Part shown: piece after piece, positions 12,597 to 16,097 of the stretch
Numbering within the stretch: the stretch's first letter is position 1
Layout of the letters: each line of letters starts with the position of its first letter
Assembly: GCA_913041065.1 (NCBI GenBank)
Contig: CAJWII010000004.1
Span: 1-35,691 of the forward strand
Direction of reading: 5' to 3'
Length of the DNA stretch: 35,691 nt
From: an uncultured Flavobacteriales bacterium
GTDB lineage: Bacteria; Bacteroidota; Bacteroidia; Flavobacteriales_D; Sanyastnellaceae
Translations under genes and position numbers: made by a program
The notes under the pieces: model-generated
Databases searched by the model: none
Told to the model about the DNA's origin: nothing
Seen by the model: the letters and a program-made list of their open reading frames with translations, nothing else

Positions 12597-15500
12597 ATGA
12601 TTTTGACCCGACTCTCCTGTGCGGCTCCCACGATGGGACTCTTCGTGATGCTCCTCTTGGCAGGGCTTCCCATTGCCCATGCGCAATGGCTGGAGTGGGA
12701 CCTTCAAACCGACAGCCGCCTGGTGCTTTACTCGGTGGCCCAATCGGACGACGAAGAAAAAGACATGTGGCCGGCCGACTTGAATCAAGACGGATGGACC
12801 GACGTGATTGTGGTCCGGAAAGAGCCCTTTTCTGCGGCGACCGAGCCCGCCAAATCTGACCTCTTGCTCATGAATCAGGAGGGCACGTTGGTGGACATGA
12901 CGGAGGAGTTGGCCCCTGAGTTCTTGACCAACCTCAGCTTCGCAAGGGACGTCTACACCGTGGACGTAGATGGCGACACGTGGGACGACGTGGTCATCAT
13001 CAACACGTTCAACCAACAACCCATGCTTTACATGAACCTCGGAGTCGACGAGGACGGAGCGTGGTTGGGTCTGGCGGACCAATCGGCCGAGCGGTTCCCT
13101 GAATTGACAAGCGACCAGCCGTTGATGTGTGCGGTGTGGGCCGGAGACTTGACTGGCAACGGCGCCCAGGATTTGTACTTCGTGAACTACCGGGTCAACA
13201 GCGGTGGTGGCACGGCCAAGGACTTCCTGCTCATCAACGACGGCACCGGGCACTTCACCGACGAGGGCGAAGCCCGGATGGGCGATTTGCTGCACAGCGC
13301 ATTTGGCACGGCAGGCCAAATCCACGACATGGACGGCGACGGCGACCTGGACATCGTCAAAAACACCACACTGTACAACGTGGCGCCTTGGAACAGCCGC
13401 GGGGTCTTGGTCCTCTTCAACAACGGGGAAGGGCACTTCAGCAACTGGCAAAACTTGGTGCCCAACGCCTCCCCGTACATGTTCGAGGTGGCCGATTTCA
13501 ACGGCGACGGCCTGCTGGACCTCTACGTGGTCGACGACGGAAGCGACAAGCTGCTCACCGCCACCGAGCACGTCGCAGACACCGAGCTTGGGTTCACCAC
13601 TGTGAACCTGGGCTTCCCCTCTTCCAACGGGTTTGGAGGAAACGTGCACGCCGCGGACTTGGACTTGGACGGCGACGTGGATGTGGTGGTTTCCGACGTG
13701 GATGTGGACATCCCCCCGTGCAACAGCGGACGGCGCATGGCGATCTACGAGAACGTGGACGGCATGCTGTCCGACCCTTACGGCACGACCACATTCGATT
13801 GGGTTACGAACAGTTACGATGTGGCCTTGCTCGACATCAACAACGACGGGCTTGTGGACATCTTGAGCGGAAAGTGCGCCGGCTATGAGGTAATCATGTC
13901 CGACAACTGCGCGCTTGCGTCGAGCTCGGCGGATTACGATTTGGACGGGGTGCCCGACGCCTGCGACGAGTGCCCCAACAACCCCGACCCCGACTGCGAA
14001 GTGCAAGGTTCTTACCCTACGGTGAGTACGGACCACAGCATGGCCCGGCAATGGAACGACATGCTGCTGGAAAGCATTCGGGCCGACTTCGCCCGCCCCA
14101 CGGTGCATGCCAGGAACCTGTGGCACAGCTCCCTGTTGATGTGGGACGCATGGGCAGTGATGGACAGCGCCGCATGCCCGGCATTCTTGGGACAGGACTT
14201 GGGCGGATTTGTGGCCGCGTTCGACGGATTCACCCCGGCGACCGATGAGGAAACGGCGCGTAATGAAGCCATCGCCTTCGGGATGTACCGGCTCTTGAGC
14301 CACCGCTTCGCCAACGCCCCAGGCGTGGACGACCTCCTGGTCGGCTACGACATCCACATGGGCATCTTGGGCCACGACGTGAACTTCACAAGCACAGACT
14401 ACTCGAGTGGCGACGGACGGGCGCTTGGCAACCATCTCGCGGAGCAGCTGATTGCGTTTGGCCTTCAAGACGGGGCCAACGAAGCCAGTGGGTACGCCAA
14501 CACGGTGTACGAACCTGTGAATCCCTCCCTGATTGTCGATTTGGATGGCAACGAAGCCGTGGAAGACTTGAACCGGTGGCAGCCCCTCACACTGGATCTG
14601 TTTATCGACCAAAGCGGCAACGTCATCCCCGGAGAAACCCCGCCATTCCTGTCGCCAGAATGGGGCCAAGTGACGTCGTGGGCGCTCGGCGACGAAGACC
14701 TCAACACCTACACCCGAGACAGCTTCAACTACCAGGTCTACCACGATCCTGGACAGCCGGCATTGCACGCCATGGATGGCTCAGGGACCTCGGAGATTTA
14801 CCAAGGGGGGCACAGCATGGTGGCGCTTTGGTCGGGCATGTTGGACCCCACTGACGGGGTGATGTGGGACATCAGCCCCGCGTCGATTGGCAATCGCACC
14901 TCCTACCCCACCACGCTTGAGACGTACGCCACCCTGTACGACGCCACAAACGGCGGATCGCCCAGCCCGGGCCACGACGTCAATCCGTCCACTGGAGACC
15001 CCTATACGCCCAACACGGTGCCCCGTGGCGACTATGCACGTGTGCTCGCTGAATTTTGGGCGGACGGGCCAGATTCAGAGACCCCTCCCGGCCACTGGTT
15101 CACCATCCTGAACTACGTCAGCGACCACCCCCAACTGCTGAAGCAATTCCAAGGTGAAGGTCCAGTGTTGGACGACTTGGAATGGGACGTCAAAGCGTAC
15201 CTCGCCCTCGGATCCGCCATGCACGATTGCGCCATCTCAGCGTGGGGCGTCAAAGGCTGGTACGATTCGTCGCGGCCCATCACGGCCATCCGAGGCATGG
15301 CCGAACTTGGGCAAAGTTCAGACCCCACCTTGCCGAGCTACCACCCAGGAGGGTTGCCGCTGGTGCCTGGCGCCATTGAATTGGTGGAAACCGGAGACCC
15401 GTTGGCCGGTCTTGCAGGCCAACATGTGGGCGAAGTAAAGCTTTGGGCCTGGAAGGGAAGCGACGCCATCAACAACGTGGACACCGAATTCGCAGGGGTA

Positions 15501-16097
15501 GGCTGGATTCTGGCCAAAGCATGGGAGCCCTACCAACGTCCGTCCTTCGTCAGCCCAAACTTCGCCGGCTACGTGAGCGGGCACAGCACCTTCTCGCGCG
15601 CCGCCGCAGAGGTCCTGACCGCCTTCACCGGCGACGCCTATTTCCCTGGCGGCATGGGGAGATTCATCGCGCCAGCAGGCGAATTCTTGGTTTTTGAAGA
15701 CGGCCCCAGTGTCGACGTCGAATTGCAATGGGCCACCTACCGAGATGCCTCAGACGAATGCAGCCTGTCTCGCATCTACGGCGGAATCCACCCGACGTTT
15801 GACGACGTGCCAGGACGACTCATGGGCATCGACATTGGGCTGGACGCCTTCCAGCGAGCCGTGTCGTTTTACGGCGGCGACGCGGCCGAAGGTCCGTGCA
15901 CGTCCACCCCAGAGCCGGTGACCTGCCCCGGGGACCTCGACAACGATGGCTTCGTGACCATCTCCGATGTGCTCATCTTGTTGGGCGACTTCGGGTGCAC
16001 CAGCGCATGCGTGGGTGACGTGGACGGAGACGGGGTGGTGACGGTGGCGGACCTCTTGGGAGGCATCTTGGCGTCCTTCGGCGAAGTTTGCCTTTGA
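12597..16097 (+). CDS. Secreted multidomain vanadium-dependent haloperoxidase (FG-GAP/VCBS - TSP3-like - PAP2/VHPO - dockerin-like)
   Basis: Signal peptide; repeated DxDGDxxxD FG-GAP units; SSADYDLDGVPDACDECPNNPDPDC (TSP3-like); VHPO triad KGWYDSSRP (KxxxxxxRP), VSGHSTFS (SGH), SRIYGGIHPTFD (SRxxxxxHxxxD); C-terminal GDLDNDGFVTISDVLILLGDFG...GDVDGDGVVTVADLLGGILASFG. Confidence 0.88.
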   Translation: MILTRLSCAAPTMGLFVMLLLAGLPIAHAQWLEWDLQTDSRLVLYSVAQSDDEEKDMWPADLNQDGWTDVIVVRKEPFSAATEPAKSDLLLMNQEGTLVDMTEELAPEFLTNLSFARDVYTVDVDGDTWDDVVIINTFNQQPMLYMNLGVDEDGAWLGLADQSAERFPELTSDQPLMCAVWAGDLTGNGAQDLYFVNYRVNSGGGTAKDFLLINDGTGHFTDEGEARMGDLLHSAFGTAGQIHDMDGDGDLDIVKNTTLYNVAPWNSRGVLVLFNNGEGHFSNWQNLVPNASPYMFEVADFNGDGLLDLYVVDDGSDKLLTATEHVADTELGFTTVNLGFPSSNGFGGNVHAADLDLDGDVDVVVSDVDVDIPPCNSGRRMAIYENVDGMLSDPYGTTTFDWVTNSYDVALLDINNDGLVDILSGKCAGYEVIMSDNCALASSSADYDLDGVPDACDECPNNPDPDCEVQGSYPTVSTDHSMARQWNDMLLESIRADFARPTVHARNLWHSSLLMWDAWAVMDSAACPAFLGQDLGGFVAAFDGFTPATDEETARNEAIAFGMYRLLSHRFANAPGVDDLLVGYDIHMGILGHDVNFTSTDYSSGDGRALGNHLAEQLIAFGLQDGANEASGYANTVYEPVNPSLIVDLDGNEAVEDLNRWQPLTLDLFIDQSGNVIPGETPPFLSPEWGQVTSWALGDEDLNTYTRDSFNYQVYHDPGQPALHAMDGSGTSEIYQGGHSMVALWSGMLDPTDGVMWDISPASIGNRTSYPTTLETYATLYDATNGGSPSPGHDVNPSTGDPYTPNTVPRGDYARVLAEFWADGPDSETPPGHWFTILNYVSDHPQLLKQFQGEGPVLDDLEWDVKAYLALGSAMHDCAISAWGVKGWYDSSRPITAIRGMAELGQSSDPTLPSYHPGGLPLVPGAIELVETGDPLAGLAGQHVGEVKLWAWKGSDAINNVDTEFAGVGWILAKAWEPYQRPSFVSPNFAGYVSGHSTFSRAAAEVLTAFTGDAYFPGGMGRFIAPAGEFLVFEDGPSVDVELQWATYRDASDECSLSRIYGGIHPTFDDVPGRLMGIDIGLDAFQRAVSFYGGDAAEGPCTSTPEPVTCPGDLDNDGFVTISDVLILLGDFGCTSACVGDVDGDGVVTVADLLGGILASFGEVCL

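Follow-up and report, generated by a model that had tools for sequence, protein, structure and literature searches.

A probable exported vanadium haloperoxidase with a lineage-specific, exchangeable C-terminal module in a marine Flavobacteriales bacterium

Vanadium haloperoxidases (VHPOs) are enzymes that make bleach-like halogen oxidants, and their vanadate ligands are common to them and the PAP2 phosphatases. Among bacterial VHPOs, the Zobellia iodoperoxidase (PDB 4cit and 4usz), NapH1 (3w35) and XhnO11 (9l8x) share with the protein studied here the whole-core fold and motifs 1 and 3, at 15–19% identity to its core, which is ~110–220 residues longer; their solved chains match the core part only. 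The Curvularia inaequalis vanadium chloroperoxidase (1vnc and mutants) has the same fold (E 1e-13 to 1e-12) at 13–14% identity to the core, and its solved chain carries neither an FG-GAP region nor a dockerin-like module. Like our core, it has a Trp three residues before the active-site Lys (K-3), as do chlorinating VHPOs, while red-algal and cyanobacterial bromoperoxidases have Arg there (PMC11871015); its residue F397 is named in PMC10427571. A further group, the FG-GAP/UnbV_ASPIC–VHPO–T9SS proteins of Flavobacteriaceae and Cytophagales (e.g., L053, Reichenbachiella agariperforans), has a core 54–58% identical to ours behind an FG-GAP region but, unlike our protein, contains UnbV_ASPIC and ends in a T9SS-type tail. 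For the C terminus, the described counterparts are Dockerin type I (PF00404) and the GC-type dockerin (NF041540), which like our module consist of two EF-hand-like repeats in a C-terminal place; in our case, however, conserved cysteines bound the repeats and the genus is without cohesin matches. Literature searches returned no paper using the term "GC-type dockerin" and none joining a haloperoxidase with FG-GAP, and searches of structures and papers found no characterized member of this VHPO branch.

We analyzed a window of 35,691 nucleotides, the whole stretch of DNA examined, from a marine Flavobacteriales bacterium and found in it a gene for an exported VHPO-type enzyme (Table 1). We read the product as an exported haloperoxidase whose terminal tag is specific to the lineage and probably serves surface attachment (a probability of roughly 0.65), and the exchangeable tag is its most interesting feature, more so than the enzyme itself. 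The preliminary description had the extent of the ORF exactly right, and its division into parts held up. The signal peptide consists of a hydrophobic stretch and an AxA/QW-like site conserved in orthologues. FG-GAP_3 matched the ORF at 2.9e-27 in 6 stretches (Pfam), and seven D-x-[DN]-x-[DN]-type calcium loops lie at residues 61, 123, 184, 244, 300, 354 and 413; their spacing of 54–62 residues suggests a seven-bladed propeller. The TSP3-like linker, DYDLDGVPDACDECPNNPDPDC, is real and nearly invariant across 22 orthologues; Pfam TSP_3 gave no score on it when the full protein was searched. The dockerin-like module has four cysteines in two EF-hand-like repeats (residues 1110–1165), and a single residue separates the last cysteine from the stop codon. 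The ORF thus ends with this module, and the T9SS type A tail (PF18962), absent in the earlier account as well, had no Pfam match in the protein. The AlphaFold check proposed at that stage succeeded for the core alone (pLDDT 90.6, pTM 0.93) and failed for the full-length protein (pLDDT 40 from 14 sequences), so the module assignments draw on the sequence and the core model. Phage records contained no match to the protein.

Table 1. Parts of the haloperoxidase gene in window coordinates
Feature	Position	Strand	Basis
VHPO gene, 1166 aa, ATG start	12597..16097	+	ORF call; full-length orthologues
Signal peptide, residues 1–29, site AHA/QW	12597..12683	+	Sequence reading; site conserved in orthologues
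FG-GAP region, seven calcium loops, residues 54–436	12756..13904	+	Pfam and loop pattern; conserved in step with core
Cysteine-rich TSP3-like linker, residues 445–467	13929..13997	+	Nearly invariant in orthologues
VHPO catalytic core, residues 475–1096	14019..15884	+	Pfam, core profile, AlphaFold core model, Foldseek
Motif 1 KGWYDSSRP, residues 886–894	15252..15278	+	K886, R893, P894 and W883 invariant in 79 cores
Motif 2 SGH, residues 994–996	15576..15584	+	Invariant in 79 cores; Phe 989 seven residues before His
Motif 3 SRIYGGIH, residues 1058–1065	15768..15791	+	R1059 and H1065 invariant in 79 cores
Terminal two-repeat dockerin-like module, residues 1110–1166	15924..16094	+	Profile, Dockerin_1, dockerin_GC and structure-profile matches

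The core was compared with known VHPOs by motifs and overall fold. Pfam placed VCPO_2nd in the protein above its cut-off (2.2e-8), bearing out the VHPO domain proposed earlier; DUF6851 gave a weak match, and PAP2 stayed below its cut-off (E 0.09, 13 bits against 27.2). Using the core model, Foldseek recovered NapH3, NapH1, XhnO11, the Zobellia iodoperoxidase and the Curvularia chloroperoxidase (1e-18 to 1e-12; best E 1.5e-18) in alignments spanning 620–730 columns, with TM-scores to the target of up to 0.77, while algal and cyanobacterial bromoperoxidases matched more weakly than these. When a profile was built from 79 cores spanning several phyla, VHPO structures were its sole significant matches (8.5e-15 to 4.7e-7). 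That the core has the VHPO fold is next to certain.

The vanadate-binding motifs K-x6-RP, SGH and SR-x3-G-x-H are all present and, as had been described, intact (residues 886–894, 994–1000 and 1058–1069). Across the 79 cores, 153 columns are at least 97% conserved and include every vanadate ligand: K886, R893, S994, G995, H996, R1059 and H1065 are invariant in 79/79, and so are the halide-site residues W883 (K-3) and F989 (H-7), the second of which we take, from the motif spacing, to be equivalent to F397 of the Curvularia chloroperoxidase. An exported acid phosphatase with PAP2 chemistry would share the vanadate/phosphate ligands and is hinted at by the PAP2 trace. The title of PDB entry 3bb0, moreover, indicates that apo-chloroperoxidase can dephosphorylate, acting on phosphoesters. 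The acid phosphatases, however, matched the core model at E 0.29 or worse and over ~110 columns, against the whole core for VHPOs, the PAP2 score lies far under its cut-off, and the halide-site Trp and Phe do not vary. Of the two activities that the preliminary description had offered, halide oxidation or phosphatase, the first is favored: given the halide-site residues and a fold match that covers the whole core, the core is very probably a haloperoxidase, and the phosphatase reading, rejected on fold coverage, is most unlikely.

The best structural matches being NapH3 and NapH1, the enzyme might also be a VHPO homologue that oxidizes or rearranges a defined substrate at a specific site, with no release of diffusible hypohalite. 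We consider this very unlikely: the core keeps the motif 2 His, whereas the alignments have SGF in NapH3 and SGS in 9l8x at the same place, the protein is exported, and no biosynthetic cluster was found around the gene. The fold, the invariant residues, W883 and the motif 2 His favor instead a haloperoxidase of the hypohalite-releasing kind. On halide preference the sequence points two ways: Trp at K-3 accompanies chlorination capacity among characterized enzymes, but SGH and Phe at H-7 are shared by this core and the Zobellia iodoperoxidase. The gene order GcvP / UbiA-like / VHPO / kynureninase / TrkA does not extend beyond the genus, and we therefore drew no pathway from it; "UbiA-like" is our own reading of a hydrophobic ORF that has no Pfam match.

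A scan of genomes yielded 137 confirmed relatives, and the best 80 of them were kept. Beyond close relatives, the core occurs at ~53–64% identity in Bacteroidota, Rhodothermota, Calditrichota, Planctomycetota, Pseudomonadota, Gemmatimonadota, Acidobacteriota and Candidatus Eiseniibacteriota. Of the 11 genus genomes, 10 have a whole-protein orthologue, one of them truncated at a contig end, and the family has further ones, 61–65% identical, in five other genera; their presence there and in further families rules out a one-off or misassembled fusion. In one of these five genera (genome G024, L140), the dockerin-like end is absent within the available stretch. Two paralogues in the window genome, C49 (51%) and C44 (45%), both end in dockerin-like repeats. 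Conservation of the FG-GAP/linker/core unit extends across the genus to other families of the order, and the identities of the FG-GAP region and the core to the window protein fall together (0.66 and 0.67 in L135; 0.58 and 0.64 in L143), which argues that the unit is old and fixed. Fusions of FG-GAP and VHPO with UnbV_ASPIC are also found in Flavobacteriaceae, Cytophagales and Gammaproteobacteria, L062 (Alteromonadales) has the two parts in reverse order, and the N-terminal label (FG-GAP or short N terminus) changes at least six times on the core tree. The architecture had been called unusual; since FG-GAP–VHPO fusions recur in Bacteroidota and Gammaproteobacteria, the word holds for the four-module combination only, and even that is the norm in the genus and also occurs in several other genera of the family.

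The C terminus behaves differently from this fixed unit. Orthologues end in a T9SS tail or a dockerin-like module at the same position: three proteins from other families of the order (L141, L142 and L143) together with L013 and L014 carry a T9SS-type tail in place of the dockerin-like pair and share the FG-GAP/linker/core unit at 58–64% identity in both halves. A quick tree of 101 cores (LG+G4, SH-aLRT support only) requires no fewer than 11 switches of tail type, with tail classes assigned by simple sequence patterns, three hand corrections (L013, L074 and L077) and a Pfam check on eight representatives including L014; the supported branches force at least five changes for the dockerin label. 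T9SS tails prevail in the VHPOs of Bacteroidota, dockerin-like modules in those of Phycisphaerae and this family, and many Gammaproteobacteria VHPOs have nothing after the core. L076 has an apparent PEP-CTERM-like tail by our own reading of its sequence. Loss of a T9SS tail by frameshift is unlikely for the window protein, because the kynureninase ORF overlaps the VHPO stop and all genus orthologues end alike. The lack of a T9SS tail and the presence of the dockerin-like pair, listed earlier as separate features, are thus linked: each orthologue with such an end has either tail or module at this position, and judged by sequence, the module is a family-wide terminal tag.

To follow the module beyond the VHPO, we built a profile (A2) from 15 modules of the window genome. 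It gave 43 matches in that genome, 32–68 per genome in the 11 genus members, 22–74 in many other genomes of the family and few in the rest, and 0–3 in other families of the order. In the window genome the module was C-terminal in 20 of the 20 ORFs inspected, 0–11 residues before the stop and usually ending in "...FGxxC" plus 0–2 residues. In the complete genome of a relative (G021), 28 of the 30 best among 62 matches ended at most 9 residues from the stop; L198, which would make 29, has the stop inside the matched stretch, and L176 has 46 residues after the module. The proteins carrying it include an endonuclease I, CotH, esterases, an M12B peptidase, an FG-GAP/ASPIC protein and a CBM48 protein, all of them kinds that are typically secreted. 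SprA and 42–45 T9SS tails are present beside the module proteins in the window genome, so both tags coexist there. The density of T9SS tails, counted as first-look candidates given a ceiling of 78 scored matches, is inversely related to that of dockerin-like modules over the whole family (rho -0.61); once the genus of the window is left out, the relation is gone (rho -0.22, p 0.27), and a general trade-off between the two is therefore unsupported outside it.

The dockerin-like pair named in the preliminary description was recovered by Dockerin_1 in the VHPO module alone (8.7e-5, 23.1 bits against a cut-off of 22.9), although not when the full protein was searched. The dockerin_GC model scored 24.9 bits (2e-5) on the module alone and 17.1 bits on the full protein, both below its 29-bit cut-off. 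At E up to 0.1, Dockerin_1 matched 14 and dockerin_GC all 15 of the 15 window-genome modules, and the solved structure closest to the module profile was the dockerin 2y3n (1e-8). These similarities speak for a true dockerin that would dock the enzyme on a surface cohesin scaffold in the manner of a cellulosome, the cohesin being divergent or in missing parts of the drafts. Within the family, a G018 protein resembles a scaffoldin in that it has four cohesin-like repeats (Pfam 9.6e-14) and ends in a dockerin-like module, and a G025 protein has a cohesin followed by a dockerin-like stretch; scaffold-like proteins therefore exist in parts of the family. Noncellulosomal cohesin–dockerin systems have been proposed elsewhere (PMC6461901; PMC8542988). 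Against this, neither cohesin PF00963 nor a local cohesin profile (A4) matched anything in the window genome and its 10 genus mates, incomplete drafts in which divergent cohesins could escape both, or in the complete G021 with its 62 modules. Docking in the genus is thus without a known partner, and we regard a true dockerin as unlikely and binding by a classical cohesin in this genus as distinctly improbable. The modules of the genus look orphaned, with a cohesin that is too divergent, another binding target or a role as sorting signal as the candidate explanations.

The last of these would make the module a further type of C-terminal signal for the T9SS or another outer-membrane route, with no docking involved. 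Its strict C-terminal position, its exchange with the T9SS tail on orthologues, the usually exported nature of its cargo and the presence of SprA are all consistent with this. Against it, known T9SS signal domains are unlike calcium-loop EF-hands. The excerpt of PMC10202324 describes T9SS signals of types A, B and C and has no EF-hand pair among them; it also describes these signals as confined to one phylum, to which the Phycisphaerae, whose VHPOs end in the same kind of module, do not belong. We hold this explanation to be doubtful, if somewhat less so than true docking. In broader terms, that the module acts in targeting or attachment is probable. Tentatively, and at less than even odds, we propose that the EF-hand pair of this family is a cohesin-independent sorting or anchoring signal, functionally swappable with the T9SS type A tail, that each genome places on dozens of exported proteins and that a putative receptor recognizes.

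For the VHPO itself, an exported haloperoxidase with a terminal tag would work as follows. The signal peptide would direct export via Sec. The ~620-residue core would bind vanadate through K886, R893, S994-G995-H996, R1059 and H1065 and use H2O2 to oxidize halide to hypohalous species outside the cytoplasm. The FG-GAP region and the cysteine linker may form a calcium-stabilized companion domain serving stability or contact with substrate or surface. The dockerin-like module, observed in exchange with the T9SS type A tail at the same place, would be the lineage's alternative to it and probably keeps the enzyme at or near the cell surface via a putative receptor, in line with the surface tethering suggested earlier as one option.

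Through secreted VHPOs, reactive halogen species arise outside the cell, where they may contribute to chemical defense and to marine halogen chemistry, and the branch described here spans several phyla. The dozens of terminal dockerin-like modules raise the concrete question of what they are used for in genomes with no recognizable cohesin, and the further one of whether T9SS-bearing bacteria have another terminal targeting route. The exchange of tails on an otherwise fixed protein, which some families end with a T9SS tail and another with a dockerin-like module, amounts to a natural experiment.

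Length and module order varied among the relatives of the window's vanadium haloperoxidase (VHPO). Two very long forms (L013 and L143; open frame of 2182 aa) ended in a T9SS-type tail and carried additional sequence N-terminal to their FG-GAP region. The Alteromonadales-type proteins (L062, L063, L067 and L072; about 1813–1835 aa) reversed the order of the window protein, with the core first, at the N-terminal side; in L062, the one placed with Pfam, it was followed by PKD, FG-GAP and UnbV_ASPIC modules.

Kynureninase lies directly 3' of the VHPO gene in the window and also adjoins a VHPO gene in Gilvibacter. 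Seen in two lineages only, this adjacency could be due to chance.

Coordinates of VHPO and kynureninase genes outside the window
Feature	Location	Match	Details
VHPO paralogue, own genome (G000)	C49:3559-5658	51%	without FG-GAP region; C-terminal dockerin-like repeats
VHPO paralogue, own genome (G000)	C44:3077-4975	45%	without FG-GAP region; C-terminal single dockerin-like repeat
Long VHPO form	L013 3271-9816		
Gilvibacter kynureninase	L027 4545-5789; L032 4554-5798	48% identity	divergent from adjoining VHPO gene

Within the window's family, contig C45 of genome G018 (loci L166/L200) encodes a scaffoldin-like protein of about 618 aa, in which four cohesin-like repeats precede a terminal dockerin-like module; a second dockerin-like module lies about 5 kb away.

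Five ORFs of the window's own genome (L097 and L099–L102) end in one cysteine-bounded EF-hand-like repeat rather than two, with the pattern CPxDLDxDGxVxxxDLLxLLxxFGxxC. Because some of its proteins end in this way, half a dockerin may be sufficient.
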